In this document: positions 11,284 through 30,634 of the stretch, piece by piece
Layout: each line of letters begins with the position of its first letter
Numbering within the stretch: position 1 is the stretch's first letter
Assembly: GCA_001898145.1 (NCBI GenBank)
Contig: MKSR01000036.1
Location: 124,001-188,000 of the forward strand
DNA length: 64,000 nucleotides
DNA from: Dyadobacter sp. 50-39
Lineage (GTDB): Bacteria > Bacteroidota > Bacteroidia > Cytophagales > Spirosomataceae
Direction: 5' to 3'
Translations under genes and position numbers: made by a program
Notes under the pieces: model-generated
What the model saw: the letters and a program-made list of their open reading frames with translations, nothing else
What the model was told of the DNA's origin: nothing
The model's database searches: none

Positions 11284-12186
11284 TTAAATCCCTGTCAATC
11301 CCCTGAAAAAATTCCTGGCGATAATGGCATATTCGAGCGGGTTGGCCTTGGCGGGGTCTTGCTCGGCTTCGAGGACGATCCAGCCGGTGTAGTTGCTTTC
11401 TTTGATGATCGCGAACAGTGAAGGGAAGTCGATGCAGCCTTCTGGATCGCCCGGTACGGTGAAGACGCCGTTTTTAACGGCCGTCAGAAAGCTCAGCCGC
11501 TCGTCGTGTACACGTCGCAGCACGTTGGGGCGTACGTCTTTCAGGTGTATATGTGCAGTGCGGCCGATGTATTTGTTCAATGCCGCTACCGGATCTTCGC
11601 CGGCGAAATGGAAATGCCCGCAATCATAGTTCAGAAATACGTAGTCGGGGTTGGTTTCATTCAGCAGCCGATCGGTTTCCTCGACGGTCTGAATGCAGGT
11701 CCCCATATGGTGGTGAAACGCCAGTTTCATACCGCGATCACGGGCAATTTTGCCCAATTCAGTCAGGCCGTAGGTGAAACTATTCCATTCTTCACGGGTA
11801 TTCAGCATTCCTTTACCCTCAAAAACCGGCACTTCCATTTGCCCCTGACAGCTGTTTCCGGTTTCGCCTCCGCCGATTACTTTGGCGCCCATGATTTCCA
11901 GGAAATCGAGCAGTTTGGTGAAATTCTCGCGGTTTTCGGCGAAAGATTTGGTCGTCAGTTCATAACTGTTCCATTGGTTGCAAATCTGCAAGCCGCGCAG
12001 TTCCAATGCCTTTTTCAAAACATTGGTATCGCGTGGAAACTTGTTACCCACTTCGCAGCCTGTAAAACCGGCCAGCGCCATCTCGCTCACGCATTGCTCG
12101 AATGTATTTTCGCCGCCGAGCTCCGGCATATCGTCGTTGGTCCAATTGATAGGAGCAACGCCCAGTTTAATGTTTTCGAAGTTCAT
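11284..12186 (-). CDS. iolE: Myo-inosose-2 dehydratase
   Basis: A 300-residue TIM-barrel enzyme (xylose-isomerase-like) that dehydrates scyllo-inosose (2-keto-myo-inositol) to 3D-(3,5/4)-trihydroxycyclohexane-1,2-dione, step two of myo-inositol breakdown. The start KLGVAPINWTNDDMPELGGENTFEQCVSEM is the IolE signature; metal and substrate residues lie in AFHHHMGTCIQT, LNYDCGHFHFAGEDP, AHIHLKDV and GWIVLEAEQD. The length fits the family. It is the last gene of the operon, 3 bases after the iolD stop, which indicates translational coupling with IolD, the next enzyme of the pathway. It could be called IolI-like on fold alone, but the N-terminal block and its partners favour IolE. Confidence 0.93.
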   Translation of the reverse strand: MNFENIKLGVAPINWTNDDMPELGGENTFEQCVSEMALAGFTGCEVGNKFPRDTNVLKKALELRGLQICNQWNSYELTTKSFAENRENFTKLLDFLEIMGAKVIGGGETGNSCQGQMEVPVFEGKGMLNTREEWNSFTYGLTELGKIARDRGMKLAFHHHMGTCIQTVEETDRLLNETNPDYVFLNYDCGHFHFAGEDPVAALNKYIGRTAHIHLKDVRPNVLRRVHDERLSFLTAVKNGVFTVPGDPEGCIDFPSLFAIIKESNYTGWIVLEAEQDPAKANPLEYAIIARNFFRGLTGI

Positions 12187-15044: not shown

Positions 15045-16655
15045 TTACCAGAAAATGGTGTATAAAGCTGCCAGCACACCGCAGATCAGCACCGAGCCTA
15101 TCGCGAAGCTCCTGCCGGGCTGGAACATTGATGCCTCTATGTTCAGGCCCTTCGGATTGTTCTTGCTTTTGGGATCAGCCAGGGAAATGGCGGCGATAAC
15201 CGCGCAGAGTATCAGGAAAATGTAGCCCATGCGGTCCAGAAACGGAATTTCGGGGTACATAAACTTGCCGGCTGTCGATAGCGGGATCGTCAGCAACGCG
15301 GCTGCCAATGCGGCAGCGGAGGTAGTCCGTTTCCAGAACATTCCGAGGATGAATATCGCAAACACTCCTGGCGTAATGAAGCTGCTATATTCCTGGATAA
15401 ACTGGTAGGCCTGGTCGAGGACCCGTAACTGCGGTGCGATAAGGACACCGATGGCCATTGCAACATAGATTGTGATGCGGCCTACGCGCACCAACTGGCG
15501 CTCGCTGGCCTGCGGCGCAATGTACTGTTTGTAAATGTCTAATGTAAAAATCGTTGAAATACTGTTGGCTTTACCGGCTAGGGACGCCACTATGGCCGCG
15601 GTAAGCGCTGCAAAAGCCATCCCCTTCAAGCCTGCGGGCAGGAGGTTCAGCAGAACCGGGTAGGCATGGTCAGGTTTCACCACATTGCCGGCGAGCATTT
15701 CTTGCTGGAACATGCCGTTTTGATATAAAACGAAGGCTGCAATGCCCGGGATCACAACGATGATGGGGATGAGCAATTTGAGCAAAGCGGCGAACAGAAT
15801 GCCTTTCCGGGCAGTTGGCAAGCTGGCACCAAGGCTGCGCTGGATAATGTACTGGTTGCAGCCGAAATAGGCCAGGTTGTTGATCCACATGGCACCGAGG
15901 ATCACCGTCAGGCCGGGAAGGTCTTTGTAGAACGGATTATCCTTCGGCAGGATCATATGGAAATGCGAATCAGCCTGTTCTTTCAGTAACCCGAGTGCAT
16001 TGAAAATGCCCGGTCTGTTGAAATGCTGCGATACCAGATCCAATGCAAGGTAAGTAGTTGCCAACCCTCCGAGGACGAGCACAACCACCTGCACCACATC
16101 CGTATAGCCGATTACCTTCATCCCGCCGATCGTAATCACGACGGCAAACAGTCCCAGTCCCACGATCGCGTATTGAAAATCAATTCCGGCAGTCACTTCA
16201 AGCGCCAGGGCGCCGAGGTACAAAATGGATGTCAGGTTTACAAATACATACAGCAGAAGCCAGAAAACCGCCATGATGGTCGCTACTGTCGGATTATACC
16301 TTTCCCGCAGGAACTGCGGCATGGTGTAGATCTTGTTTTTGAGATACACCGGGAGAATGAACAACGCCACGACGATCAGGGAGGCTGCCGCCATCCATTC
16401 GTAGGAAGAAATGGCCAGCCCAATGGCAAATCCCGATCCCGACATTCCGATAAAGTGCTCCGCAGAAATGTTGGAAGCGATGATCGAGGCACCGATCGCC
16501 CAGAATGTCAGCGAACCCTCCGCAAGAAAGTAGTCGGTCGAACTGACTTCTTTCGAGCTTTTCTTTCTATAAATCCAGTAACCGTAAGCGGAAACGCCTA
16601 TCAGATAGATGAAAAATACTATGTAATCCAGCGATTGCAGACCGGTAGTGGACAT
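15045..16655 (-). CDS. Sodium:solute symporter (SSS/SglT-like), probable myo-inositol transporter
   Basis: A 536-residue inner-membrane symporter of the sodium/glucose cotransporter family with about 13-14 hydrophobic helices. The SSS signatures are visible: GASIIASNISAEHFIGMSGSGFA near residue 57, TIGGMKVIGYTDVVQVVVLVLGG near 175, and GLKGMAFAALTAAIVASLAGKANSISTIFTLDIYKQY near 345, whose Ser and Thr contribute to the sodium site. The family carries glucose, galactose, inositol and similar polyols. Encoded between iolG and the aldolase, it is the obvious inner-membrane inositol importer; substrate is inferred from context. A 206-bp gap with a repeat-rich palindromic element separates it from iolG. 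Confidence 0.9.
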   Translation of the reverse strand: MSTTGLQSLDYIVFFIYLIGVSAYGYWIYRKKSSKEVSSTDYFLAEGSLTFWAIGASIIASNISAEHFIGMSGSGFAIGLAISSYEWMAAASLIVVALFILPVYLKNKIYTMPQFLRERYNPTVATIMAVFWLLLYVFVNLTSILYLGALALEVTAGIDFQYAIVGLGLFAVVITIGGMKVIGYTDVVQVVVLVLGGLATTYLALDLVSQHFNRPGIFNALGLLKEQADSHFHMILPKDNPFYKDLPGLTVILGAMWINNLAYFGCNQYIIQRSLGASLPTARKGILFAALLKLLIPIIVVIPGIAAFVLYQNGMFQQEMLAGNVVKPDHAYPVLLNLLPAGLKGMAFAALTAAIVASLAGKANSISTIFTLDIYKQYIAPQASERQLVRVGRITIYVAMAIGVLIAPQLRVLDQAYQFIQEYSSFITPGVFAIFILGMFWKRTTSAAALAAALLTIPLSTAGKFMYPEIPFLDRMGYIFLILCAVIAAISLADPKSKNNPKGLNIEASMFQPGRSFAIGSVLICGVLAALYTIFW

Positions 16656-16861: not shown

Positions 16862-17896
16862 CTATACCTGTGCAGCCGCGTATTGCAGCACTTCGTCCAG
16901 TTTCACGCTTCGGCCTTCCGTCAGGGACTTCATCGCAGCGATGCCGATGGCGGTGGCCATCAGGCCGTCGTGCGCGTCCACGGGGGAAGGAGTGTCTTTC
17001 AACACGCAGTCGATGAACGTTTTAAGGCAGACGCGGTATGCCGTTTCATACCTTTCGAGGAAGAAATGCAGCGGAAGCGAGCTATGACCGCCATTGCTGT
17101 CGAAATGAATGAGTGTGTCAGTCGTATTGTTTTCTGCCTTCGCCATGCCTTTTGATCCGAAGATTTCGAGGCGTTGGTCGTAACCGTAAACGGCTTTGCG
17201 GCTATTGTCGATCACGCCTATCGCGCCATTTTCGAAAGTCAAAACAATGACAGCCGTATCAATATCGCCGAATTCCCTGATCTCCGGGTGAATGAGCGCG
17301 TCTCCCTTTACAAATACCTCTTTCACCTCACTTCCCACAATGTAGCGGGCCATATCGAAGTCGTGGATAGACATATCGAGGAAAATCCCGCCCGAAACTT
17401 TCAGGTACTCCACAGGCGGCGGTGCCGGGTCGCGGCTGGTAATGCGCAGGATGTGCGGCTCACCGATTTTGTCGGCCGCTACCAGGTGCCGCACATTGTT
17501 GAAGTTGGCATCGAACCGGCGGTTGAAGCCCAGCATTAACTTCACATTGTTGTCGGCAACGGCCTTTTCGGCTGCCTGGATCGCTTCGAGTGTGACGTCG
17601 AGGGGTTTTTCACAAAAAACATGCTTTCCTTTTTCAGCCGCAGCAACCGTGTAGGGTACGTGGAAAGGGGTAGGAGAGCAAATGATCACAGCCTCCACAT
17701 CGGGGTGGTTGATCACATCGTAGGCGTCGGTAACGACCTCGGGTACACCCAGGTCTCGGGCGAATGCATGCGCAGCCGGCGAAAGGTCGGAAGCGATAAT
17801 CACTTCCGCATCGGGCATGTGGTGCACCAGGTTTGTAAGGTGTATCTGGCCAATCCGGCCCAGTCCGATCACACCGGTTTTAAGTTTTTTTGTCAT
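16862..17896 (-). CDS. iolG: Myo-inositol 2-dehydrogenase
   Basis: A 344-residue NAD-dependent oxidoreductase of the Gfo/Idh/MocA family that oxidises myo-inositol to 2-keto-myo-inositol, step one of the pathway. The N-terminal Rossmann motif GVIGLGRIGQIH (residues 8-19), the catalytic dyad Lys in FCEKPLDVTL (about residue 97) and the active-site block SGGIFLDMSIHDFDMARYIVG (Asp and His near residue 175) are all present. The length is the family norm. Read leftward after iolA with a 63-base gap. Together with iolB, C, D, E, J and A it makes the cluster a full inositol route. Confidence 0.93.
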   Translation of the reverse strand: MTKKLKTGVIGLGRIGQIHLTNLVHHMPDAEVIIASDLSPAAHAFARDLGVPEVVTDAYDVINHPDVEAVIICSPTPFHVPYTVAAAEKGKHVFCEKPLDVTLEAIQAAEKAVADNNVKLMLGFNRRFDANFNNVRHLVAADKIGEPHILRITSRDPAPPPVEYLKVSGGIFLDMSIHDFDMARYIVGSEVKEVFVKGDALIHPEIREFGDIDTAVIVLTFENGAIGVIDNSRKAVYGYDQRLEIFGSKGMAKAENNTTDTLIHFDSNGGHSSLPLHFFLERYETAYRVCLKTFIDCVLKDTPSPVDAHDGLMATAIGIAAMKSLTEGRSVKLDEVLQYAAAQV

Positions 17897-17959: not shown

Positions 17960-19426
17960 TCAGAATTTCCTGTGCCATTCTTTCAGCCAGCGCTCGATCA
18001 CCACTTTCGTTTGGGTGAAGAACTCTACCGCGTGTTTGCCCTGGCCATGGAGGTCGCCGTAGAAGCTCTCCTTCCAGCCGGAGAACGGGAACTGTGCCAC
18101 CGGAGCGGCTACACCGATATTGATACCGATATTACCTGCCTCAGCCTCGTGACGGAAACGGCGCGCGTTCAGTCCGCTGCTGGTGAAAATACAAGCCATA
18201 TTACCGTACTTGCCTGAGTTGATAAAGCGGATCGCTTCGTCGATCGTATTAATATGTACCAGGCTCAGTACCGGACCGAAAATCTCGGTCGCAGCCAGCT
18301 CGCCGTCCAGCGGAATGTCTTCGATGATGGTAGGAGCGATGAAGTTCCCGTTTTCGTAGCCGTCAATTTTCGCGTTGCGTCCATCCACGAGCAAACGGCC
18401 TCCTTCGTGCAAACCTTTGTCAATCAGGGTGTGGACGCGGTTCTTACTTTCGGCGGTGATCACCGGGCCCATCAGTACGTCCGAATCCAGACCGAAACCG
18501 GTTTTACGGCTTTTAGCAGATTCAACGAGGCTCTCGGTGATGTCCTTATGCTCACCAACGGTGATGATCGTCGAAGCCGCCAGGCATCGCTGTCCCGCAC
18601 AGCCATAAACGCTGTCGATCACGATCTGCGAAGTCATGTCGATATCCGCATCCGGCAGAACGATTACCGGGTTTTTTGCGCCGCCCTGGGCCTGAACGCG
18701 TTTTCCGTTGGCCGAACCTTTGGCATACACATAACGGGCCACATTGGAGGAGCCCACAAAGCTGATACCCTTGATCACCGGATGTTCGAGAATGGCGTCC
18801 ACCGTTTCGCGAGCGCCCTGTACCAGGTTCAGCACGCCCTTGGGAAGGTCGAGCTGTTCCATGAGCCCAACGATCTTGGTCATTGTGAGCGGCACTTTTT
18901 CCGAAGGTTTGATAATGTAGCTGTTACCGCAGGCGAGTGCGTAGGGGAGGAACCAGAATGTGATCATACCCGGGAAATTGAACGGCGCAATGCATGCGCA
19001 CACACCCAGCGGCTGGCGGATCATGTACTCGTCGATACCCTTGGCAATATCTTCGGAAAACTCTCCCTGGATGAGCGTCGGCATACCGCAGGCATTCTCC
19101 ACGTTCTCGATCGCACGGACCATTTCGGCCCTGGCCTCGATGAACGTCTTGCCCGATTCGAGCACGATGGTCCTGGCAATGTCGTCGGCGTTGTCTTCGA
19201 GGATTGTTTTGAGTTTAAACAAATATTGCACGCGCTTCGAAACCGGCGTATTTCTCCACTCCTGAAAACCCTCGTGGGCAGCCGCTGCGGCATCGGCAAC
19301 GTCTTGTGCATTGCCGTACGGTACTTTTGCCAGCACTTCCTGCGTGGCGGGGTTCAGCACGTCCGACAGTTGGTCGGAGTGGCTGTCGACCCAGCGGCCG
19401 TTGATGTAATTCTGTAATTTTTCCAT
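17960..19426 (-). CDS. iolA: CoA-acylating methylmalonate/malonate-semialdehyde dehydrogenase
   Basis: A 488-residue aldehyde dehydrogenase of the MmsA/IolA type, converting malonate semialdehyde with CoA and NAD to acetyl-CoA and CO2, the last step of inositol breakdown. [19 protein letters not shown] and the catalytic [10 protein letters not shown] (Cys near residue 285) match MmsA; the usual ALDH general-base Glu region is replaced by the Gly-rich AQGGAKN, as expected for the CoA-dependent class. [11 protein letters not shown] and [31 protein letters not shown] complete the signature. The gene lies 14 bases after the iolC stop in the same direction. Confidence 0.94.
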
Positions 19427-19440
19427 GTGTATTTTGAAAC

Positions 19441-20448
19441 TTATAATCCTCCGTATCCTTTCACGAACTCCATTACTTCCTCATAGGCCGGCATGAAATT
19501 CGCGCAGCCTTCCCGCGTGACGATAATCGCCCCGCACGCATTTCCCATTCTCACGCTTTTGTACAAATCCCATCCCCGCAGCAACCCGAAGGAGAAACCG
19601 GCGCAGAAAGCGTCGCCCGCCCCCAGCACATTCAAAACTTCCACCGGGAAGCCCGGTACTTTCACTTCTTCCTTACCGGGCTGGAAAATAGACGCACCGT
19701 CTTTACCACGCTTCACCACCAGTGTTTCCACGCCTGATTGCAGGATTTCCTGGATGGCATTTTCGATATTCCCGCGGATTTCCGGCGCCGAGATCTGCTG
19801 GTGTTTGATCAAAAGCTGCTCTTTGTCGGTCAGGAACGTGGCAAGAATCTCTTCCTCGGTCCCAACCACGATGTTGAAGCTCCCCAAAGCCGCGCGGATT
19901 GTTACGCCGAATGCGCGTGGATCGAACCATTGGTCGGCGCGGAAATCGATGTCCAGCAGCCTGGTAACCCCGTTTTTCTTCGCCATTTCCAATGCATAGA
20001 ACATCGCCGTGCGGCTCGGATCCTTGCTGAACGCGGTACCTGAAAACGCCGCGGCCTTGAAATCCTGGAACGGTATCGCAGATACGTGATCGATATTGAG
20101 GTTGATATCCGCGCAGTTTTCGCGGTAATATACCAGCGGGAAGCGGTCGGGTGGCTCGATACCCAGTACCACGGCCGAGCTGCGTGTACCTTCGATCACC
20201 GGCACCCATTCGGTAACGATGCCCTCGTTGTCGAGGAAATGCTTGATGAAATTTCCGACCTGGTCGTTTCCGATTCCCGTCAGGATAGCCGTTTCCAGGC
20301 CCAGCCGGCGGCTACCGGTGGCGATGTTGAGCGGGCAACCGCCCACAAAGGCGTTGAATGCCTCAATTTTTTCAAATGGGCTGCCCACGTTGGCCGAGTA
20401 GAGGTCAATGGACGAGCGGCCAAGGGTAAGAAGATCGTATTTGGGCAT
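19441..20448 (-). CDS. iolC: 5-dehydro-2-deoxygluconokinase (PfkB family)
   Basis: A 335-residue ribokinase-fold sugar kinase that phosphorylates 5-dehydro-2-deoxy-D-gluconate at O6. The start [43 protein letters not shown] contains the PfkB first block with the Gly-Gly hinge; [20 protein letters not shown] is the second block with the catalytic Asp. VGTEEEI and [12 protein letters not shown] are typical nucleotide-side blocks. I use the ATG at 20448; a longer frame to 20478 adds ten residues that fall in the repeat-flanked leader. It is the second gene of the operon after iolB, with a 136-bp palindromic repeat element between the two genes. Confidence 0.93.
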
Positions 20449-20460
20449 GGGAGTATATTT

Positions 20461-20580
20461 TACTTCGGCTTTCGGCAATCGGCTGTCGGCCTTTTTTTTA
20501 CTTCGGCTTTCGGCCTCTTATTATTTTTGTCCTATTCTATTTTCAACTGTCCGACAGCCGATAGCCGACGGCCGAAGTAC
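20461..20580. repeat. Intergenic palindromic repeat with TACTTCGGC ends (element B)
   Basis: The left arm, 20461-20490, is made of TTCGGC, TTTCGGC, AATCGGC and TGTCGGC units. A second partial copy of the left arm is at 20499-20515. The right arm, 20553-20580, carries the complementary units (CAGCCGA, TAGCCGA, CGGCCGAAGTAC). The outer ends TACTTCGGC and GCCGAAGTA pair perfectly. The element fills the gap between iolB and iolC and ends 4 bases before the iolB stop codon. Related copies are at 39986-40062 and 40079-40153. Confidence 0.85.
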
Positions 20581-20584
20581 TTTT

Positions 20585-21448
20585 CTACCTGTTCATCTCC
20601 GCAGTCACGATCGGCAGTCTCGGATCGGCACCTTTCCAGGTCCCGTAAATCCAGTCGTGGTCGGGGTCGGAGGTGTTGGCGAGCGACTGGTCGCTTCCGG
20701 CGAGGAAATTGAGATAATATACATTGTAGCCATGGCCCGCCACTACCGGGTGGTAGCCTTTGGGAACGAGCACCGCTTCATTGTTTTTCACGCGGATAAT
20801 TTCGTCCAGCGAGCGGTCTTCGGTATAAACCTGCTGAATGGCGTAACCCTGCGGTTTGTCGATTTTATAGACATAGATTTCTTCGAGATTCGCTTCGAGC
20901 AAAGTGCCGTCCTCGGCTACCTTGCGCTCGTCGTGCTTGTGCGCGGGGAAGGAGCTCCAATTGCCCGATGGCGTGTACACTTCCACACACACGATCTTGT
21001 GGCAGCCGAAGCCCGGTTCGAGCAGGCTGTTGATCTGGCGGTTGGCATTGTCGCCGCCACGGTATTCGATAGCAGCTTCTTCGGGGCGCTTCATACGCGG
21101 CGGGTGGTCTTCGTCGGAAGGGACTTTGCAGATGGCTATATCCGTGCCCGGCGACTGTGCGGTGAGCACGAAAGGCGTGCGGCGTGAAAGGTACATCGCG
21201 TGGCCAATGCCACTGAAAACATCCTTGCGGCCATTGCCCGTTTCCCAAACCTGCCCGGCCGCTTCCACCTTGAAATTTCCGCCCAATAATGCAAAGCAAT
21301 ATTCATAATCGCCGGTATCACCCACAATTTGTTCGCCCGCTTCCAGTATTTTAGCTTCGAAGTTCAGGTACGTCCAGCCGGCTTGTTCGGCGGTGAGGGA
21401 ATGATAGGTCTTGTCGTGTGTTCGGGGCTTGATCAGCAGGTCACTCAT
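20585..21448 (-). CDS. iolB: 5-deoxy-glucuronate isomerase
   Basis: A 287-residue bicupin enzyme (KduI/IolB family) that isomerises 5-deoxy-D-glucuronate to 5-dehydro-2-deoxy-D-gluconate. The metal site is visible in the second cupin as SSFPAHKHDERK plus a Glu in the following ANLEEIYVYKID and a His in KGYHPVVAGHGYNVYYLNFLAG. The ending DHDWIYGTWKGADPRLPIV is specific to IolB. The ATG at 21448 gives MSDLLIKPRTHDKTYHSL; the 18 upstream in-frame residues overlap the promoter and are not used. It is the first gene of the iol operon and has a short 5' leader. Confidence 0.94.
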   Translation of the reverse strand: MSDLLIKPRTHDKTYHSLTAEQAGWTYLNFEAKILEAGEQIVGDTGDYEYCFALLGGNFKVEAAGQVWETGNGRKDVFSGIGHAMYLSRRTPFVLTAQSPGTDIAICKVPSDEDHPPRMKRPEEAAIEYRGGDNANRQINSLLEPGFGCHKIVCVEVYTPSGNWSSFPAHKHDERKVAEDGTLLEANLEEIYVYKIDKPQGYAIQQVYTEDRSLDEIIRVKNNEAVLVPKGYHPVVAGHGYNVYYLNFLAGSDQSLANTSDPDHDWIYGTWKGADPRLPIVTAEMNR

Positions 21449-21472
21449 TGTGGTAAATCCATTACATTTGCA

Positions 21473-21503
21473 CAATGATAGTGTTGTATAAATTAAACAC
21501 AAA
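21473..21503 (-). promoter_or_regulatory. Bacteroidota-type promoter of the iol operon
   Basis: On the minus strand TTTG (21503-21500), a 19-base spacer and TATCATTG (21480-21473) match the Bacteroidota housekeeping promoter, TTTG then TAnnTTTG, with one mismatch in the -7 box. The iolB ATG at 21448 is 24 bases further on, so the leader is about 17 to 20 bases long. The palindrome at 21528-21537 lies 24 bases upstream of the -33 box. Confidence 0.6.
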
Positions 21504-21527
21504 ATGTAAATATGTTAATATTGAATG

Positions 21528-21537
21528 CAAACGTTTG
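21528..21537. promoter_or_regulatory. LacI-type operator CAAACGTTTG in the iolB-lacI intergenic region
   Basis: CAAACGTTTG is a perfect 10-bp palindrome with the central CG typical of LacI-family operators; the context is ATGCAAACGTTTGAAA (21525-21540). It lies between the divergent iolB and LacI-family genes, 37 bases before the regulator start. The same 10 bases, with GC or TGC in front and GAA behind, occur twice upstream of susC. Confidence 0.65.
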
Positions 21538-21574
21538 AAAAAATTTCAAAGAATTAATTGACCTATTTTAACTC

Positions 21575-22606
21575 ATGAATTCCTCACGTCCTGTTACGAT
21601 TAAAGATATTGCACGGCGTTTCCGGTGCTCTCCCTCCACTGTTTCCCGCGCCCTGAATGACCATCCGGCGATCAATGAAGACACCCGCAAAAACATCCAG
21701 GAATATGCCAGAGAGGTGGGGTACCAGCGTAATGAAGTGTCGCTGAGCCTGCTCAACAAAAAAACCGCTTCGCTCGGCGTGGTAGTGCCGACTATCAGCA
21801 ATTACTACGAGACGGCGGTGATTGAAGGCCTGCATACGGTCTTGCAGCCCATGGGTTACACGCTCAATATCTGCGTGACAAACGAAAGTTACCTGCTCGA
21901 AAAGGAATCACTGTCCAAACTGCTCTCTAACAGAACGGAAGGTATATTTCTATCGGTGTCGCAAGAAACTTATGACGCGGGTTACTACGAGCATCTCGAA
22001 CATGTAATCCAGCGGAAAACGCCGCTCATTTTCATCGACCGGGAATACGAAGATTTCGAAACCAGCCGTGCGACAGTGGACGATTACCATGGCGCATTTG
22101 CGGCAGTAGAACATTTGATTTCGATCGGTTATAAACAAATAGCGCATTTAAAAGGCCCCAACGGCCTCACCGTTTCCGAACAGCGTTTCAAGGGTTATAT
22201 CAACTGTCTGAAAAAATACAATATGCCCATTCGGGAGGACCTCATTCTCAATACCAACTTCAATGTAGAATCCGCCATTCTGCCCACCAAGCGCCTGCTG
22301 GAACTGGCATCCCCGCCTGATGCGATCTTCGGTGTGAATGACCAGGTAGCGATCGGTGCCATGCGCGTGGCGAAGGACAAAGGCCTGCGAATTCCGCAGG
22401 ATATCGGCCTCGTCGGTTTCGATAATTCGCCCATTTCCGCTTACACATTTCCGTCGCTCACCACCGTCCACCGGCCGGGACGTAAGATCGGAATGGAAGC
22501 TTCTCGCTTGTTTCTCAATCAGTTGAACGGTTCCGGGGACTTTGCGCCCGAGAGCATTGTGCTCCCTTCCGAGCTGGTAATCCGGGAGTCGTCGCTGCGG
22601 ATTTAG
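21575..22606 (+). CDS. LacI family transcriptional regulator, probable regulator of the iol operon
   Basis: A 343-residue repressor: an N-terminal LacI helix-turn-helix (TIKDIARRFRCSPSTVSRALNDHPAI, residues 8-33), the hinge helix around residues 50-58, and a periplasmic-binding-protein-like effector domain (SLGVVVPTISNYYETAVIEG to the C-terminus), with PDAIFGVNDQVAIGAMRVAKDKGLRIPQDIGLVGFDNSPIS as the conserved C-subdomain block. It is divergent from iolB, and a palindromic operator candidate lies in between, so it probably senses an inositol-derived ligand and controls the operon and itself. Whether the ligand is inositol, inosose or a phosphorylated product cannot be seen. Confidence 0.92.
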   Translation: MNSSRPVTIKDIARRFRCSPSTVSRALNDHPAINEDTRKNIQEYAREVGYQRNEVSLSLLNKKTASLGVVVPTISNYYETAVIEGLHTVLQPMGYTLNICVTNESYLLEKESLSKLLSNRTEGIFLSVSQETYDAGYYEHLEHVIQRKTPLIFIDREYEDFETSRATVDDYHGAFAAVEHLISIGYKQIAHLKGPNGLTVSEQRFKGYINCLKKYNMPIREDLILNTNFNVESAILPTKRLLELASPPDAIFGVNDQVAIGAMRVAKDKGLRIPQDIGLVGFDNSPISAYTFPSLTTVHRPGRKIGMEASRLFLNQLNGSGDFAPESIVLPSELVIRESSLRI

Positions 22607-22718
22607 GGCCGCAGAGCCCGTGGATTTTTGAAGAAATAATTAGATCGTAACTCCCAGATACTTTGAAAAAATATTAATAGTTTAGACGATCTGTAACTCT
22701 TCTATCTGATTTGTAAAC

Positions 22719-25334
22719 TTGATTTTTAAATTTCGTTCAATCCGACTTTTCCTGTCCGTATTGTGTGTGCTTGCTATGTGCGTTGGCGAACTCCGGGCAG
22801 CTCCTTCCATCGGTATCAAGCCTGTTCCGTCGTGGGTAATTCCGGTTACACCGGGTGGGAAGGCACCTTCTTCGAAGGACTTTTCAGAGGGCTACTATAT
22901 ATCCTTTCTCGACAAGCAGATCAATCTAACGGCTCAAAGTACCTACCAACGCTTCGTACGGCAGATTGTTTCCGAAAGCGGGGTTCAGAATGGGTCTGAA
23001 TTTTCGATCAGGGTCAATCCGGCTTATGAGCGCATTGATTTTCATGAAGTAACCGTATGGCGGGGCGGGCAGCGGTTGTCGCAGCTCAATCTGCGCGATT
23101 TTAAATTGCTACCGGTGGAGTCGGAGCGGCAACGGTTTATTTACAATGGCGAGTATTCGGCGACGCTGGTGTTAAAGGATATTCGAAAAGGCGATCGGAT
23201 CGATGTATCTTATTCACGTACAGGCTGGAACCCGGTGTTCATGAACAAGTATTCGGCCTTCCTGTATTTTGATGCCTACGATTATATTTCCCACATTCAT
23301 ACAGCTATTCTTGCGCCGAAGGGACGTGCGTTGTCTTTTAAAGATTTTAACAAACCTCCGGCCAGAACCGTGCGGGATACAGGATGGAATACGGTATACG
23401 AATGGACTGCAAATAACGTCAAAAATAGTTCCTACGATGACGACGTACCCGGTTGGTATTCCAAGGAGCCTTTTGTGCAGGTGACGGAGTTCAAAAGTTG
23501 GAAGGAAGTGGTCGACTGGGGCCTTAATTTTTACCAGATACCCACGCCGACGGGCACTTTGAAGAAAAAAGTGGATGAATGGAAGGCGGAAAGTAAAACC
23601 AGGCAGGAATTCATTGGAAAGGCGATCCGCTTCGTCCAGGATGAAATCCGCTACCTGGGCGTAGAAACGGGAGAAAACTCACATAAGCCGCACCGGCCGG
23701 AAGAAGTGTTCGCTCAGCGGTATGGCGACTGCAAAGACAAAGCTTTCCTGCTGTGTGCCATTTTGCGATCGAATGGGATCGAATGCGATCCGGTGCTGGT
23801 GGATACCTACAAGCGCTCGCGCCTGGGTGATTACCTTCCTTCTCCATCGGATTTCAACCACGTGATCGCGCGCGTAAAGATGGTTGAGGAAAGGCTGGGT
23901 AATGAAGATGTATACGCGTTTATCGACGCGACGATCTCATTACAGGGTGGAACAGCGCCACAGATGCTTTGCCCTCCTTATGGCAAAGGACTGATTCTCG
24001 CTAATGGTCAGTCAGGCCCGGTGGAGATCAGTCGGCATAAATGGGGTAGTGTTGACATCGTGGAAGACATTTATCTTCCTGCAAGCGGCGATTCTCTGGC
24101 TCAGGGGCGGCTGGAAGTCAAGACAGTTTACAATGGAGCGGAAGCCGACAATTTTCGGGCGGAATTTCAGGAAGGAGATATTTCCAAACTCGAAGAAGAC
24201 TATCTGAATTTTTACAAGGATATTTTCAAACACGCAGAAGTCGATTTCGCCGATACGCTGGAATATTATGACCACCGGGAGGGGAATAATTTTTCACTGG
24301 TTGAGCGCTACTCACTCAATAAACCCTGGCAGCTCGATACGGCCGGGAACAGGTATTTCTTCGATATTTTTGGAAAAACGCTCTATGGCGAGCTGACATT
24401 CCTGCCCGGACGGCCCAGAAAAGATCCGCTTTATCTGAAATTTCCCTTTGAACGAACGTACACTATCAATATCCATTTGCCGGGCGTGTTCAGTGTCGCC
24501 AAGGATAAATGGCAGATCGAGCGTGAGGCATATGCGATTGAATTTGAGTCTGCTTACTTGCCCAAAGAAAACATCTGGTGTTTGACCTATCATTATATAA
24601 ACCGGAAAGACCACGTCCCTCTTGCGCAGATTAAGGAATTCAAGGCCGACATGGACAAACTGGCCGGGGCCCTGGACTACCAGCTCAGCGAACCGAAAGC
24701 AGGTGGTATGAAACCTTCGGATATGAATGGAGCGATGATTGGAGTTCTCATTGCCGCGATTGTATTTGCTCTTAGCTATTTTAAAAAGTTGTACACATAT
24801 TCTCCTGGTGCAGGGATATACCACGAGCCGGCGATGCATACCGGCAGCTGGCTGGTATTTGTGGGTTTCTCAATCGCGGTAACCCCGTTTGTTACGTTCG
24901 GACTGCTGGTGAATATTTTGACAAAAGGCTACCTTACCAATAGTTTATGGAATGCCTACGAGTCTTCGGGATGGCTCCGTTCCTGGTCATTCAGGGGGCT
25001 GATGATGGCCGAGATATACTTCAATATATTTGTGCTCGGGTTTGCCATTTTGCTCACGGCCCTGTTTTTCAAAAAACGCGACTCGTTTCCTCAGCTTTAC
25101 ATTCGGTTTCTGATAATCGCCGCGGTAGGTGTTTTAACGAATCAGGTGCTTGCTTTCGCATTGTCCGACAACGGCACATTTGACTACGTTTTGGCTTTCA
25201 GGAACATTGTTTTTGCTGCGATCTGGATTCCTTATATGCGTCGTTCAGAACGCGTGAAACGCACATTTGTGAATACATACGGGGCCAGTCCGGTAAAGGA
25301 AACTACCGAAAGTGTGGAAGTAATGAAGCCCTGA
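22719..25334 (+). CDS. Exported DUF3857/transglutaminase-like protein with C-terminal DUF2569-like membrane domain
   Basis: An 871-residue protein: signal peptide (MIFKFRSIRLFLSVLCVLAMCVGELRA), DUF3857 domain (about residues 55-250), transglutaminase-like domain (about 285-400) with catalytic Cys338 in RYGDCKDKAFLL, His in DFNHVIARV and Asp in YAFIDATIS, a beta-rich middle (about 430-650), then five or so membrane helices from about residue 668 on, of which residues 706-850 resemble the DUF2569 family (TGSWLVFVGFSIAVTPFVTFGLL). The start is TTG at 22719; no ATG gives a complete signal peptide. It sits between the LacI gene and the SusD gene (opposite strand), each with its own spacing. Role unknown: a peptidase or cross-linking activity on the periplasmic side of the inner membrane is likely. 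Confidence 0.85.
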   Translation: MIFKFRSIRLFLSVLCVLAMCVGELRAAPSIGIKPVPSWVIPVTPGGKAPSSKDFSEGYYISFLDKQINLTAQSTYQRFVRQIVSESGVQNGSEFSIRVNPAYERIDFHEVTVWRGGQRLSQLNLRDFKLLPVESERQRFIYNGEYSATLVLKDIRKGDRIDVSYSRTGWNPVFMNKYSAFLYFDAYDYISHIHTAILAPKGRALSFKDFNKPPARTVRDTGWNTVYEWTANNVKNSSYDDDVPGWYSKEPFVQVTEFKSWKEVVDWGLNFYQIPTPTGTLKKKVDEWKAESKTRQEFIGKAIRFVQDEIRYLGVETGENSHKPHRPEEVFAQRYGDCKDKAFLLCAILRSNGIECDPVLVDTYKRSRLGDYLPSPSDFNHVIARVKMVEERLGNEDVYAFIDATISLQGGTAPQMLCPPYGKGLILANGQSGPVEISRHKWGSVDIVEDIYLPASGDSLAQGRLEVKTVYNGAEADNFRAEFQEGDISKLEEDYLNFYKDIFKHAEVDFADTLEYYDHREGNNFSLVERYSLNKPWQLDTAGNRYFFDIFGKTLYGELTFLPGRPRKDPLYLKFPFERTYTINIHLPGVFSVAKDKWQIEREAYAIEFESAYLPKENIWCLTYHYINRKDHVPLAQIKEFKADMDKLAGALDYQLSEPKAGGMKPSDMNGAMIGVLIAAIVFALSYFKKLYTYSPGAGIYHEPAMHTGSWLVFVGFSIAVTPFVTFGLLVNILTKGYLTNSLWNAYESSGWLRSWSFRGLMMAEIYFNIFVLGFAILLTALFFKKRDSFPQLYIRFLIIAAVGVLTNQVLAFALSDNGTFDYVLAFRNIVFAAIWIPYMRRSERVKRTFVNTYGASPVKETTESVEVMKP

Positions 25335-25359
25335 GCATAGTGATTCTGGCATCAAAAAA

Positions 25360-25393
25360 GAAAAGCCGGTCAGGTTACCCCGACCGGCTTTTT
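25360..25393. terminator. Bidirectional intrinsic terminator
   Basis: AAAAGCCGGT ... ACCGGCTTTTT: a 10-bp stem with flanking A and T runs between the stops of the DUF3857 gene and the convergent susD-like gene. Confidence 0.85.
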
Positions 25394-25410
25394 GTTTGTT
25401 TACTCAAATA

Positions 25411-27105
25411 TCAATACCCATCATTCTGCTTCAAATATCCCGGCAAATTCGACGCGCCGTCGATGGCGGTTTGCGGGATCGGGAAGATGCGTTTCTTTAC
25501 GTCGGTATTGGTTTTTTCGGTCCATTTGCCTTCGTATTTGCCAAAACGGATCATATCCGGGCGGCGCAGCATTTCCCAGTAGAATTCGAAACCGCGTTCG
25601 CGGAAGAGCAGGTCGAGATTCATGGTCGTAAGCGCAGGCGGCGCGAGCGTCTTCGTGCGTGATGCGCGCACGAGGTTTACATCGGCCAGGGCACCGGCCG
25701 CGTCGTTGCTTTTGCGCAGCTTCGCTTCGGCACGCATGAGGTAAATATCGGCCAGACGTGCGATCACGATATCGGCTTCACCGCGGTTACGACCGGTGTT
25801 CGACTTATTGCTGAACTCGTATTTCTCTACACGGTAGCCCGTATTGTAGTTGCTGCCTGCGGTAGTGAAGTCGATCATCTCAGAGAAGCTTACCGGCAAA
25901 TCGGCACGGTTACGGGTCACGTAGCTCAGTTTACCCACTTTCAGCTTGCCGTCGGGGCAGCGGAGGAACGCCCCGTTTACCCGCAATGCGCCGTATTGCT
26001 GGCCTCTCAGGATACCGCGGTTGATCTTGTAATCCGCATCAGCTACACAGGTGTCGGCCGCATTGGAATAGATCGACATGTTTTGCTGATAAAAACGCGG
26101 GTCGCGGGAAGGGTCAACGGCACCATAAGCCTGTACCCAGGTCTGGTAGAAATCCGAAGTAATACCCGGACCATCGGTACCGTTCGCGGCAGGGAATTCT
26201 GCGAGCGGGAACTGGTCGCCGGAGATCGAGAAGTAAGCCATACGGTTGTGTCCGTTCAGCTCGGCGCGCTGGTCAACCGCGAAAATGATCTCTTCGTTTG
26301 TGTGGTTGCTGTTTCCAAAGATCGCGAAGTAGTCCGCGGAAAGTTTCGCCTGGCCGGAGTTGATCACCTTGTCGGTATACTGGATCACCTTATCCATATC
26401 CTCGGCCTTGAAATCGAACGTCGCACCGTAAATGTTGCGGTACACCGCTGCATTTAAATTAAGACGAGCCAGCAAGCTCCATACGGCAGCTTGGTTCAAA
26501 CGGCCCGGACCTACCACCGACTTCGGTTGCAAAACCGGCTCTACTGCCAGGAATTCGCTTTCGATGTACTTGACAGCCTCATCGCCGCGGATAATCTTGG
26601 ACGTCGTGCCCGGATCATCCTTCACAAATGCAATACCGAACAGATCGAGCATCACCATATTGTAGTAGGCGCGCATACCGCGGGCCTCCGCAGTGTAAAG
26701 TGCCGTATTGGGCGAAGTTGCACTCTTAAGGCCTTCGATGGCCGTGATACACCTCGAAATCGACTGTACGAGCTGGTTCCAGGTGTTGTTTACATTCGGG
26801 TCGGTGCTGGTGGTATTGTGCCCGTGCAAAGCAATGTAAATACCGTTATCGCCCCAGTCGGTGCCGCCCCGGTATGGGAGGATGGCTTCGTCGGTGGAGA
26901 TTTCCTGCAATGCAAAATAGGTGGTATGCTGGAAAAGGTTGGGCAGCAATGCGTAGGTCGGTGCGAGCAGTCCGTTGACTGTTTCTTCTTCTGAAAGTTT
27001 GGCCGTGAGCGTTTCGTCCAGCACTTTTTCTTTCAGGTCGGTACAGGCGTTGCTGAACATGAGCAGGCCGGTTACCGCAAATATGGTTGATAGTTTCTTC
27101 TTCAT
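25411..27105 (-). CDS. RagB/SusD family nutrient uptake outer membrane lipoprotein
   Basis: A 564-residue SusD-like lipoprotein: lipoprotein signal MKKKLSTIFAVTGLLMFSNAC (Cys21), N-terminal TPR-type helices (NGLLAPTYALLPNL, AEARGMRAYYNMVMLDLFG, QAAVWSLLARLNLNAAVY) and the C-terminal SusD block ending ADIVIARLADIYLMRAEAKLRKSNDAAGALADVNLVRASRTKTLAPPALTTMNLDLLFRERGFEFYWEMLRRPDMIRFG. It caps the SusC pore on the cell surface and binds the substrate. Its start is 10 bases after the susC stop, so the two are one transcript. Substrate is not visible, but the operators upstream of susC tie it to the iol regulator. Confidence 0.95.
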   Translation of the reverse strand: MKKKLSTIFAVTGLLMFSNACTDLKEKVLDETLTAKLSEEETVNGLLAPTYALLPNLFQHTTYFALQEISTDEAILPYRGGTDWGDNGIYIALHGHNTTSTDPNVNNTWNQLVQSISRCITAIEGLKSATSPNTALYTAEARGMRAYYNMVMLDLFGIAFVKDDPGTTSKIIRGDEAVKYIESEFLAVEPVLQPKSVVGPGRLNQAAVWSLLARLNLNAAVYRNIYGATFDFKAEDMDKVIQYTDKVINSGQAKLSADYFAIFGNSNHTNEEIIFAVDQRAELNGHNRMAYFSISGDQFPLAEFPAANGTDGPGITSDFYQTWVQAYGAVDPSRDPRFYQQNMSIYSNAADTCVADADYKINRGILRGQQYGALRVNGAFLRCPDGKLKVGKLSYVTRNRADLPVSFSEMIDFTTAGSNYNTGYRVEKYEFSNKSNTGRNRGEADIVIARLADIYLMRAEAKLRKSNDAAGALADVNLVRASRTKTLAPPALTTMNLDLLFRERGFEFYWEMLRRPDMIRFGKYEGKWTEKTNTDVKKRIFPIPQTAIDGASNLPGYLKQNDGY

Positions 27106-27115
27106 GGGTCAATAA

Positions 27116-30100
27116 TTAAAAGCCGAGGTTGATCGAGAAAATGACAGTTTTCGCTTTCGGATAGCTCAGGTAGTCGATGCCATAAGAGGTAATGCCGGCG
27201 ATCGAACGGTCGTTGTTAACTTCCGGGTCGTAGCCATTGTATTTGGTCCACAAAGCCAGGTTTTGGCCTGTAACCGAAATGCGGGCTGTCTGTACCCATC
27301 TGCTGATACCAAGCTTGGCGGTGTTGAGGTTATAGCCGAGCACGAGGTTGTTCAACCTCAGGTAAGCACCGCTTTTGAGATACCTTGTAGAAACACCTGC
27401 CGAGTTGTTAACCGATTCTTCCGGCGATTCGAGTGCTTCCGGTGTTACGTTCACACCTTTCGACAGTTTCAGCTTGTAAAAATTCGAGTTCGCAGTGTTG
27501 TCATACACTTTGTTGCCGGCAACGCCATTGAAATTGGCGCTCAGGTCGAAGCCCTTGAAGCTGACATTTCCGTTGAAATTGTACATGCGGGTAGGTAATG
27601 CAGTACCGGCTACAACACGGTCGGCGTCGTTCACGATGCCATTGCCGTCCACGTCGCGGAACTTGCTGATGCCTTTCTCGTCGAAACCGATGAACTCTTT
27701 CAGGTAGAATGAGCCGATCGCCTCCCCATTGATATAGCCGTTGATGGTGGCCGACGTCAGACCGGATCCTTGCGCGGATCCCGAAGGAATAACGGTATAA
27801 GGAGAGTGTTCGACGCGGTTTTTGATGAAAGTAATGTTTCCGCCAAGCGAGTATCTCAAGCCATTCTCCAGGGTATTGCGATAGTTCAGGTCAAGCTCCA
27901 AACCCTGGTTGATGATCTGCATATCAGGCACGTTGGTCCAGAAAGTACCCGCTGGCTGAACTGGGTCGGCAGGGATCACTTCAAGCAGCATCTTTTCGGA
28001 TACCTTTCTGAAATAATCAATTTCTCCACTCAATGCCCCTTTGAACAAACCAAAGTCAAGACCTAAGTCCGTCTGTTTGGACACTTCCCATTGGATGTTG
28101 GGGTTAGCCAGACGTGTGTAGGTAGTACCGGCGGGATAGGTGGTGCCGCCGTCAAGCGGATAGCTCGCAGTTCCTGAAACCACGGATGTAAAACGTGCCT
28201 GCGTAATTTTGGATGGGATTTCCTGGTTACCCGTCGATCCCCAGCCTGCGCGGAGTTTCAATTCCGAGAATGGCGACGATTTCATGAAAGGTTCTTCTGA
28301 AATCCTCCAACCTGCGGAGAACGACGGGAACGATCCGTATTTGTTGTTGGAACCGAATTTGGACGACCCGTCGATACGCAACGTAGCGGTAAGCAAATAC
28401 CTGTCTTTGAAACCATAGCTCGCACGGCCAAAGAACGATTGTAATTCATTGATCGTCGCGAAACCGCCGGGTTGATTCAATGCCAACGAAAGATCTTGCC
28501 CGAGGCCCGGGTTGTAGATCGGCTCGATGTCCGAGATCGGGAATTTGTTGATACTGAAATTCCGGCTCTGAATGAAAATGCGCTGGTATGAATGACCGAG
28601 CAATGCGGTCAGGCTGTGCATTTTGGTATTCAGGTTGTAAGTAAGGTAGTTCTCGATCAGTCTGTTGGTATTACGGAGACCGTAGTTTTCCAGACGTCCG
28701 ATCTCGGCCGGGATCGTACTGGGCAGCAATTGCTTATCCTGTGTGGCCGTTGAGTTATCGATGCCAAAGTTCAGTTTGTAAATCAGCCCGTCGATAATCT
28801 TCACGGAAGGCGAAATACTCGCCAGCACGCGGTTGGTCGTCAGTTCCTCCTTATACTGCTGCAAAGTGAACAGCGGGTTGGTGAAATCCTGATATTGAGC
28901 AATTTGTCCGTTCGCATCGTAGGGAGCGTAAGTCGGGTTGATGGTCAGGGCACTACCAATCGCACCCTGGATGTTAGGACGTTGGTTCTTGGTATTGGTA
29001 GCATTCAGATTAAAATCCAGCGTCACGCGGTCGTCGAACAATTTTTGCGAAAGGTTCATACGACCCGTGTAGCGGTTCTGCTGGCTGTTTTTAAGAATAC
29101 CTTGCTGTTTTTGCGCGCCAAATGATGCGTAATAGGTCATTTTATCACTACCGCCACCCACTGACACGTTGTGATTGTGAGTAGTAGCAGTCCTGAAAAT
29201 TTCCTTCTGCCAGTCCGTATTGGCTTTCCCGTCGGTGATGGTTGCGCCGAGCTTGGTCGCTTCGGCCAAAAACTCAGGTCCCGAGAGCACATCCAGCGGA
29301 CGTGCTACATTGGAAATACCCAGGCTTCCCGAGTAGGTCACTTGTGCGGTGCCAGACTTGCCTTTTTTAGTTGTAATGAGAATAACCCCGTTGGCACCTC
29401 TTGCACCATAGATGGCTGTGGCAGAGGCGTCTTTCAGTACATCGATCGACTCGATATCCTGTGGGTTCAGGAAGTTGAGGGGGTTGGTATCGCCGCCGGT
29501 ACCGCTGTTGTCGAGCGCCATACCGTCCACCACAAACAGCGGCGTACTGCCGGTGCGCACACCACCCGGTCCGCGCACGGTGATGTTGGTTTTACCGCCT
29601 GGCTCACCGGTAGCCGAAGTGATATTCACACCCGAAACTTTTCCCTGAAGCAATTGCTCGGGCGAGTTGATGATACCCTGGTTAAACTCTGCGCTTTTGA
29701 GCGACTTCACCGAGCCGGTAATGTCCTTCTTCGTAGCGCTGCCGTAGCCGACTACTACCACCTCGCTGAGGTTGGACGCTGCTTCTTTAAGCTTGACGAC
29801 GATGGAGCTCGCATTGCTTTCGGTGAGCAGGAAATCTTTCAGGGATTGTTTTTCAAATCCTATATAGCTGAATTCCAGGTTGTAACGCTGGCCTGTTTGC
29901 AGATTAGCAAAACTGAAAGAGCCCGATTCGTTGGTAGTTGCTCCCTGCTTGTTATTGCCGCTGACGTCGGAAATCACCACGGTAACGCCCGGCAGTCCTT
30001 CCGAAGATCCTTCGGTGGTCACTTTCCCGGTAAGGGTAACTTCCTGCAACTTGTTCATGCTGGTTTCAACATGTTTTCGGGGCTGGCCTTCGGGAACCGG

Positions 30101-30205
30101 TATTGCAGCAGCTGCTATGGCATGCAGGCCGCAAACGGCCGTTACCTGCATGAGGCAGTTTCTGATTATCCCGGTCCTGACTGATAGAGTCGAAGTATTT
30201 CTCAT
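27116..30205 (-). CDS. SusC/RagA family TonB-linked outer membrane transporter
   Basis: A 1029-residue TonB-dependent transporter. After the signal region (MRNTSTLSVRTGIIRNCLMQVTAVCGLHAIAAAA) come a CarboxypepD_reg-like domain (residues ~55-140, VTLTGKVTTEGSSEGLPGVTVVI ... FSYIGFEKQ), a plug domain (~150-270) with EVVVVGYGSATKKDITGSV and the SusC signature FVVDGMALDNSGTGGDTNPLNFLNPQDIESIDVLKDASATAIYGARGANGVILITTKKGK, and a 22-strand barrel ending in SYPKAKTVIFSINLGF with a terminal Phe. It imports an oligomer or large ligand with the SusD-like partner encoded 10 bases downstream. Two CAAACGTTTG operators lie 145-174 bases upstream of the start, identical to the one at the iol promoter. Confidence 0.95.
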   Translation of the reverse strand: MRNTSTLSVRTGIIRNCLMQVTAVCGLHAIAAAAIPVPEGQPRKHVETSMNKLQEVTLTGKVTTEGSSEGLPGVTVVISDVSGNNKQGATTNESGSFSFANLQTGQRYNLEFSYIGFEKQSLKDFLLTESNASSIVVKLKEAASNLSEVVVVGYGSATKKDITGSVKSLKSAEFNQGIINSPEQLLQGKVSGVNITSATGEPGGKTNITVRGPGGVRTGSTPLFVVDGMALDNSGTGGDTNPLNFLNPQDIESIDVLKDASATAIYGARGANGVILITTKKGKSGTAQVTYSGSLGISNVARPLDVLSGPEFLAEATKLGATITDGKANTDWQKEIFRTATTHNHNVSVGGGSDKMTYYASFGAQKQQGILKNSQQNRYTGRMNLSQKLFDDRVTLDFNLNATNTKNQRPNIQGAIGSALTINPTYAPYDANGQIAQYQDFTNPLFTLQQYKEELTTNRVLASISPSVKIIDGLIYKLNFGIDNSTATQDKQLLPSTIPAEIGRLENYGLRNTNRLIENYLTYNLNTKMHSLTALLGHSYQRIFIQSRNFSINKFPISDIEPIYNPGLGQDLSLALNQPGGFATINELQSFFGRASYGFKDRYLLTATLRIDGSSKFGSNNKYGSFPSFSAGWRISEEPFMKSSPFSELKLRAGWGSTGNQEIPSKITQARFTSVVSGTASYPLDGGTTYPAGTTYTRLANPNIQWEVSKQTDLGLDFGLFKGALSGEIDYFRKVSEKMLLEVIPADPVQPAGTFWTNVPDMQIINQGLELDLNYRNTLENGLRYSLGGNITFIKNRVEHSPYTVIPSGSAQGSGLTSATINGYINGEAIGSFYLKEFIGFDEKGISKFRDVDGNGIVNDADRVVAGTALPTRMYNFNGNVSFKGFDLSANFNGVAGNKVYDNTANSNFYKLKLSKGVNVTPEALESPEESVNNSAGVSTRYLKSGAYLRLNNLVLGYNLNTAKLGISRWVQTARISVTGQNLALWTKYNGYDPEVNNDRSIAGITSYGIDYLSYPKAKTVIFSINLGF

Positions 30206-30349
30206 AGTCGTGGATTATTGGATTTTACAGTGAATAGAATGTTGGAGCCAAAGGAATTTACAGTCATAGAGGAAAATTTGGAGTAATGAGTTACAAGATT
30301 ACCGATTGTATTATTAAGATAATTAATAGTAATTACTTTATAGTCAATG

Positions 30350-30359
30350 CAAACGTTTG
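30350..30359. promoter_or_regulatory. LacI-type operator CAAACGTTTG upstream of susC, proximal copy
   Basis: A perfect 10-bp palindrome in the context AATGCAAACGTTTGAAA, matching the site at 21528-21537 over at least 14 bases including flanks. It lies 145 bases upstream of the susC start codon. Confidence 0.6.
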
Positions 30360-30369
30360 AAATTCTGTG

Positions 30370-30379
30370 CAAACGTTTG
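30370..30379. promoter_or_regulatory. LacI-type operator CAAACGTTTG upstream of susC, distal copy
   Basis: A second perfect copy in the context GTGCAAACGTTTGAAAA, centred exactly 20 bp from the proximal copy, that is about two helical turns, so two repressor dimers could bind on the same face of the DNA. Confidence 0.6.
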
Positions 30380-30634
30380 AAAAAATATGGAGATTTAATT
30401 GGATGAAATTAATACTGCTTTTTGGGGTGTAGGAATAGTGATTTTAAATCATCCCAAAGTCTAACGGGGATGAGAAAAGTTGCATTTAAGCAGCATTTCA
30501 GGCCAAAAATGGGATTAGCAGGAAGAATAAATGAAGGAATTCGCTTTAAGGAATTGTTAAATCGGCCGGAGCGGATAGGACACGGGCTGGAAAGTGGAGT
30601 AGCGGGAGGGAAGCGACGGAGAATTTTCAGACGA

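Follow-up and report, generated by a model that had tools for sequence, protein, structure and literature searches.

A conserved LacI-type operator probably places a SusCD outer-membrane importer and inositol catabolism under common control in Dyadobacter

In Dyadobacter, a LacI-family inositol repressor probably controls both the inositol catabolic (iol) operon and a SusCD importer through a shared operator, as suggested by the conservation of its predicted binding sites across related genomes. An exact string scan of the whole window (the 64-kb stretch of DNA analyzed here) located the palindrome CAAACGTTTG at three positions only, 21528-21537, 30350-30359 and 30370-30379, in agreement with the original prediction. 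The first copy lies between iolB, on the minus strand, and lacI, on the plus strand (ATG 21575), and the other two form a pair 145-174 nt upstream of the susC ATG at 30205. All three are enclosed in the longer sequence TGCAAACGTTTGAAA, which bears out the matching flanks described earlier, and 19 bp are common to the first and third copies. The predicted operators, none of them assigned to a strand, are operator 1 (TGCAAACGTTTGAAAA, 21526..21541, in the iolB-lacI gap, with its exact core at 21528), operator 2 (TGCAAACGTTTGAAAT, 30348..30363, promoter-proximal at susC, exact core at 30350) and operator 3 (TGCAAACGTTTGAAAA again, 30368..30383), which is spaced 20 bp from operator 2, as had been noted. 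The two groups of operators are 8.8 kb apart and the ends of lacI and susD 2.8 kb apart, so the distance of 5 kb given previously has to be corrected.

The source genome belongs to Dyadobacter, and its iol operon occupies the minus strand between 21.5 and 11.3 kb, in the order iolB, iolC, iolA, iolG, symporter, aldolase, iolD, iolE. The curated NCBIfam cut-offs are exceeded by iolB (5-deoxy-glucuronate isomerase, 20585..21502 as the ORF is listed, TIGR04378), iolC (5-dehydro-2-deoxygluconokinase, 19441..20478, TIGR04382), iolG (inositol 2-dehydrogenase, 16862..17896, TIGR04380), iolD (12190..14055, TIGR04377) and iolE (11284..12186, TIGR04379), as well as by iolA at the level of the methylmalonate-semialdehyde dehydrogenase family (17960..19426, TIGR01722). 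The remaining two genes, also on the minus strand, encode an SSF-family sodium:solute symporter presumed to mediate inositol uptake across the inner membrane (15045..16655, PF00474 and TIGR00813 above cut-off) and a class II aldolase presumed to take the iolJ role (14086..15036, PF01116). The regulator gene (21575..22606, plus strand) is divergent from iolB and encodes a protein with an N-terminal LacI helix-turn-helix (HTH, ...CSPSTVSRAL...) and a periplasmic-binding-type sensor domain (PF00356 and PF13377, both above cut-off), of which residues 7-339 match chain 1rzr, the glucose-resistance amylase regulator. As is typical of the family, a palindrome with a central CG, the candidate operator, is found near the regulator's own gene.

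On the same strand as the iol operon, a TonB-linked SusC barrel (27116..30205, TIGR04056 and TIGR04057 above cut-off) adjoins its surface lipoprotein partner SusD (25411..27105, PF07980 above cut-off), to which the related solved structures are all distant. A terminator-like hairpin of 14 pairs directly 3' of susD (25361..25392, minus strand) fits a two-gene susCD unit; the hairpin scan of the region returned 15 such patterns compared to 14.2 in shuffled sequences, so the scan itself is weak evidence. No glycosidase or phosphatase gene was found within the susCD unit of the window. The interval between lacI and susD (22607-25410 in the window, where it holds a DUF3857/transglutaminase gene) looks like an insertion hotspot: at the same place in relatives it ranges from 78 bp to 7.9 kb, with about 400 bp or less in four genomes, and carries DUF3857 genes and, by eye, also aldo-keto reductase, permease and short toxin-antitoxin-like genes. 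We rejected these genes as a clue to the ligand, as the cargo differs between species.

Taken by itself, the window proves little. With up to one mismatch, CAAACGTTTG has 7 matches in the window, including the three exact ones, compared to 3.6 expected, and at least 7 matches were obtained in 4 of 100 shuffles. Three exact sites per 64-kb window correspond to a Poisson P of 1.5e-4 (0.10 expected), a post hoc value in which the pair is counted as two. A genome-wide motif scan, which had been proposed together with the original prediction, yielded 12 exact palindromic sites in the 7.72-Mb genome and 16 for the reversed control, indicating no enrichment of the 10-mer. Because the 10-mer occurs at reversal level genome-wide and its one-mismatch matches in the window are near chance, significance from the window alone was rejected as proof, and this weakness of the evidence within a single genome led us to the comparison with relatives. 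The tandem pair with a spacer of 9-12 nt is a single occurrence in the genome. Apart from the three window sites, the exact matches comprise one before an INO1-like gene, two before other susC-type genes (L079, L003), three within ORFs (L005, L009, L011) and three elsewhere without an inositol link (L078, L081, L082); altogether, three susC-type genes have the core at a distance of no more than about 500 bp. An inositol link is apparent for 4 of the 12 sites (iol, susC twice and INO1), and the 8 sites without one count against a shared LacI regulator.

These other sites raise the question of whether a LacI paralog with a similar half-site binds upstream of susC, in which case susCD would answer to a different sugar and the palindrome would be a common core of LacI operators. 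The genome contains 12 LacI-type HTH matches, STVSRAL is common to 5 of the 7 HTHs displayed, and GCAAACGTTTTTT occurs close to another lacI locus. Among distant LacI relatives (37-42%), several have their own gene preceded by CGCAAACGTTTGC-type sites, and the core can thus not be regarded as the mark of one regulator alone. TTATGCAAACGTTTGCATAA and the symmetric TGCAAACGTTTGCA lie upstream of a second SusCD, which follows a gene for a Gfo/Idh-type dehydrogenase (G000:C8:279294, L079:10001-10014), a similar arrangement recurs in six further Dyadobacter loci (L381, L391, L392, L396, L398, L402), and GCGCAAACGTTTGCGC lies about 350 bp before the third susC-type gene of the genome (L003, G000:C10:196227), perhaps a site of another LacI paralog. 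Against a paralog, ATTTTTTCAAACGTTTGCA is common to the iolB site and the distal susC site, in the same orientation relative to the gene, and susCD is found near this particular lacI in 36 of 48 Dyadobacter genomes. Together with a locus from another family discussed below, these observations make control of susC by a different LacI protein unlikely.

Comparison within the genus strongly favors the regulator encoded beside iolB. Its ortholog is found in all 48 Dyadobacter genomes at 84-100% identity, and every one of the 48 lacI loci read (47 from Dyadobacter and one from another genus) has CAAACGTTTG at most 200 bp upstream of the gene; the 48th Dyadobacter genome (G179) likewise has a site near lacI, in locus L264. 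SusD has an ortholog with 74% identity or more in 46 of the 48 genomes (absent from G112 and G150; partial and in two pieces in G179). By coordinates, susCD lies elsewhere than near lacI in 9 genomes, in addition to the 36 linked ones, with the fragmented G179 in neither class. The exact site was found within 300 bp before susC in all 45 loci read, paired in 40 and single in 5, and the pairs are spaced by 20 bp in 38 cases and by 21 bp in 2, such that the spacing seen in the window is kept in most orthologs. The 46th ortholog, in G159, where the start is on a separate contig, has a pair at 147 and 167 bp upstream, 20 bp apart, which brings the totals to 46 of 46 Dyadobacter orthologs with a site and 41 of 46 with a pair. 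In an alignment of 45 susC upstream regions, perfect conservation (1.000, compared to a median of 0.42) is reached by a single 10-column block, CAAACGTTTG.

The nine genomes in which susCD is far from iol or on another contig (G142, G145, G155, G160, G163, G168, G174, G176, G180) are particularly informative. All nine retain the tandem pair before susC, the iol loci of the same genomes also have the site, and no match to the iol genes of the window was found in the 20 kb around each of the unlinked susCD units. The common sequence can thus not be explained by neighborhood, and hitch-hiking of susCD with iol was rejected on the same grounds. Together, the 48 genomes contain 47 copies of the pair CAAACGTTTG-N9-12-CAAACGTTTG and none of its reversed control. 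Assignment by hand placed 41 of these pairs before this susC, 3 at iolB/lacI (G112, G142, G161) and 3 before other outer-membrane protein genes, of which two are other susC genes (L179, L191) and one is an Oar-like barrel gene near lacI (L264). The proposal that one LacI regulator would serve both iol and susCD is strongly supported by this phylogenetic footprinting, by the nine unlinked loci with operators and by loci of other genera.

The Oar-like gene belongs to an uncultured Dyadobacter (PF25183, 4171-7377 of L264), with the tandem pair at 7475-7505, while SusCD is encoded on a separate contig; in this genome the place of SusCD may have passed to a transporter of a different family. All 48 Dyadobacter genomes contain a longer form of the operator, the 14-mer TKCAAACGTTTGCA, compared to 7 matches in 3 genomes for its reversal. 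Counting by hand in the first 22 genomes gave 108 sites, 74 of them associated with iolB/lacI, other parts of the iol operon, this susC or INO1. The other 34 include five before the second SusCD with the Gfo/Idh gene (L381, L391, L392, L396, L398), two before a DUF4136-type gene (L380 by scanning, L382 by likeness) and one pair before the susC gene of L179, and the sites of L384 and L387 are at unrelated genes. The sites outside iol, susC and INO1 may represent further members of the regulon or sites of another LacI protein.

The position of the operators relative to promoter elements suggests how regulation might work. In Bacteroides the promoter consensus consists of TTTG at -33 and TAnnTTTG at -7, according to passages of one report, which also states that Flavobacterium johnsoniae yielded no -33 motif (PMC7366714). 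The predicted iolB promoter (21501..21531, minus strand) uses the operator half TTTG as the -33 element (21531-21528), followed by a 19-nt spacer and TACATTTT as the -7 element (21508-21501). TAnnTTT follows TTTG at exactly 19 nt in 40 of 48 iolB loci and at no other spacing between 15 and 25. At susC the -7 element is poorly defined, with TAnnTTT in 6, 4, 6 and 4 of 45 loci at spacers of 19, 20, 21 and 22 nt, respectively, and scans of the region for sigma-70-type promoters and terminators were overall no better than shuffles. The TTG start listed for iolB (21502; window 21446-21502) would fall within the predicted promoter, and ATG 21448 is probably the likelier start.

Starting from the observed sites, their conservation, their presence when susCD is unlinked and their recurrence with other inositol genes, we propose a scheme of binding, repression, effector release and import. 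The LacI-family protein encoded beside iolB, a putative inositol-responsive repressor, would bind TGCAAACGTTTGAAA. Since the iolB site and the -33 element overlap, binding of a dimer would cover the latter and block RNA polymerase, as in classical repression. At susC, where the sites are 20-21 bp apart, that is, two helical turns, two dimers could occupy one face of the DNA. Inositol or an early catabolite would bind the regulator and release both units, allowing expression of the symporter and Iol enzymes together with SusCD as the predicted outer-membrane importer of inositol or of a small compound containing it. In this scheme lacI would also regulate itself. Since the TTTG half of the site could act as a -33 box, the conserved sequence before susC might alternatively be a promoter element, or a site of another protein, that serves basal expression with no tie to inositol. 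A perfect 10-bp palindrome present twice at 20-21 bp, with 47 occurrences in 48 genomes and none for the reversed control, exceeds what a -33 box needs, and the core is near three susC-type genes of the genome, compared to the 81 susC/susD pairs annotated in one species of the genus according to sections of PMC11573002. We consider a role limited to basal expression very improbable.

The common repressor is further supported by other genera. Among the loci with a LacI of at least 62% identity outside Dyadobacter (L269-L292), which include Pseudarcicella, Terrimonas, Agriterribacter and several metagenome bins, 20 of 24 have the exact CAAACGTTTG near lacI or an inositol gene, and in all 12 of those with an iol operon the site is between iolB and lacI. 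The four loci without a site are L271, where the contig begins about 1 kb before lacI, L273, L274 and L290. Two further arrangements concern iol operons themselves. One operon contains a 36-bp perfect palindrome with a CAAACGTTTG core between iolG and the symporter gene (L056:3957-3992, G064), and four loci of another genus of the same family (L073-L076) have iol operons without an adjoining lacI, yet with two AAACGTTT cores 21 bp apart before iolB.

The same regulator also meets a second inositol pathway. The gene for myo-inositol oxygenase (MIOX, PF05153) shares a locus with this LacI in L272, L287 and L291, and with a 44% LacI in L293; in L291 a 63% relative of the window's SSF symporter follows MIOX. 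In L287, from a Saprospiraceae bin, LacI is followed by 5 kb of other genes and then by a site, MIOX, a SusC with 62% identity to that of the window and the start of a SusD, a combination of this LacI clade, operator, MIOX and SusC ortholog in one locus that argues against a paralog acting at susC. L288 and L293 have LacI, a site and then a more distant SusC and SusD (mostly 30-32%), with MIOX next in L293. In G031, from the family of the window, TTTCAAACGTTTGCAT lies before MIOX, which has a Runella-like promoter and is followed by a 67% LacI, and also before a separate 64% SusC; this latter site sits between two divergent susC genes, which counts against a shared LacI. Overall, L287, L288, L293 and G031 indicate that this combination of regulator clade, operator and SusC family is associated with both inositol pathways.

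The reach of the motif is limited in other respects. An exact site within 1 kb of susC is absent from 5 of the 6 non-Dyadobacter SusCD loci with a SusD of 66-71% identity, and L365 has one 1.3 kb away. Outside Dyadobacter, MIOX is found in 4 of 6 genomes with the SusD ortholog and in 24 of 388 others (Fisher P 2.8e-4); leaving out the three genomes of the window's own family reduces this to 1 of 3 (P 0.18), so the association is weak. Searching 1.5 kb on each side, we found exact CAAACGTTTG in 1 of 28 above-cut-off MIOX loci (G031), implying that MIOX genes of Bacteroidota do not generally carry the motif. In L371 (G619) a more distant SusCD pair neighbors iolE- and iolA-like genes, and in L378 (G458) another is flanked by MIOX and a 64% symporter relative, both without an adjoining exact CAAACGTTTG.

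It can reasonably be inferred that SusCD imports an inositol-containing compound, and free inositol, phytate products and glycosides fit alike. Because SusCD ligands usually exceed monosaccharide size, the compound could be a larger conjugate, such as a phytate product, glycerophosphoinositol or a galactinol-like glycoside, that is split at the surface or in the periplasm; this would be a variant of co-regulation with iol, not its negation. Phosphoesterase, alkaline phosphatase or metallophosphatase genes adjoin SusCD in three of the six non-Dyadobacter loci with a 66-71% SusD (L360, L363, L365) and provide a lead towards inositol phosphates, although none of these three has an operator closer than 1 kb to susC. 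The absence of glycosidase and phosphatase genes from the susCD unit of the window and the species-dependent content of the lacI-susD interval also speak against a conjugate, which we regard as a serious possibility without favoring it.

Inositol synthesis may be connected to the same operator. An inositol-3-phosphate-synthase-like protein (PF01658 above cut-off, TIGR03450 below its cut-off, with a match to chain 1gr0) is encoded at G000:C44:30966-32183 with a site at C44:32309 (L080). The protein is encoded in 30 of 48 Dyadobacter genomes and in few genomes of the order sample (7 of 291, including six from Dyadobacter). The symmetric form of the palindrome, TGCAAACGTTTGCA, precedes the gene in all 30 Dyadobacter genomes that have it, and INO1 is an independent inositol gene under what appears to be the same palindrome. 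The nearest functional parallel is IpsA of Corynebacterium and relatives, which shares the LacI family, a palindrome with a central CG, the inositol theme and ino1 among its targets, a likeness of function, not one from sequence comparison (passages of PMC3899939). There, IpsA activates ino1 without inositol from sites upstream of -35 and represses where -35/-10 are overlapped, and myo-inositol releases it from DNA (PMC3899939). It differs in being actinobacterial, and its targets in these passages are cell-wall-related genes as well as ino1, with neither an iol operon nor SusCD among them (PMC3899939). Compared to this dual layout, the overlap with -33 is clear at iolB; at INO1, besides the site in every genome with the gene, a TAnnTTTG-like element lies 48-49 bp downstream of the operator in 12 of 30 genomes, and in several others one lies close to it. 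Tentatively, and with considerable doubt, one LacI protein might block SusCD and catabolism without inositol and activate inositol-phosphate synthesis from an upstream site, with inositol reversing all of these effects. Under such a single-LacI inositol economy, SusCD would be dedicated to carrying a cyclitol, not a polysaccharide, across the outer membrane with high affinity.

IolR repressors likewise control inositol catabolic operons, and their families differ from LacI: IolR belongs to the DeoR family in Bacillus and to the RpiR family in Salmonella, and we know of no SusCD in the reports on either. Polysaccharide utilization loci of the Sus type, with a local regulator, place a SusC/SusD pair under substrate-linked control; in contrast, the Dyadobacter unit lacks glycosidases, and the LacI operator would tie SusCD to a cyclitol operon even when the two are unlinked. 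Thermotoga IolR is a ROK-family protein, and transport there is by the ABC transporter InoEFGK, with no SusCD, in the sections concerned (PMC3750489). PusCD of Flavobacterium is likewise a SusCD for a non-polysaccharide use in plant-associated Bacteroidota, but it is induced by phosphate depletion, is reported in gene clusters distinct from those of the carbohydrate type and has no tie to inositol uptake in the passages at hand (PMC8115612).

A survey reported iol clusters in 49% of 55 Spirosomaceae species, naming Dyadobacter; LacI, TonB and outer membrane are absent from its main text, and 'susc' appears only as 'susceptibility' in a reference (PMC9430895). Two Dyadobacter strains, one of which (CECT 9623, L249) is among the genomes compared here, are reported to carry phytase genes and 96 and 81 SusCD pairs; the same sections describe a general lack of sole-carbon-source use, with m-inositol tested and no separate result given for it (PMC11573002). 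No SusC/SusD pair tied to inositol was found in the open literature, including sections of PMC10033563, PMC7825182, PMC8115612, PMC11573002, PMC9430895, PMC12482443 and PMC6258284, subscription papers being outside this scope. The open literature searched is consistent with the earlier statement that links between SusCD systems and inositol are rare, but in genomes such neighborhoods recur (L287, L293, L378, L371).

For Dyadobacter, whose genomes may have 81-96 such pairs (sections of PMC11573002), our analysis offers a sequence-based functional assignment for an orphan SusCD pair. For Bacteroidota it names a putative inositol regulator of the LacI type, whose defined operator is useful for finding inositol genes in Iol-type and some MIOX-type genomes, and the conserved INO1 site allows one to ask directly whether uptake, breakdown and synthesis are coupled through a single regulator. 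If SusCD indeed serves inositol, Sus-type import, a system best known for larger sugars, would extend towards a cyclitol abundant in soil and plants.
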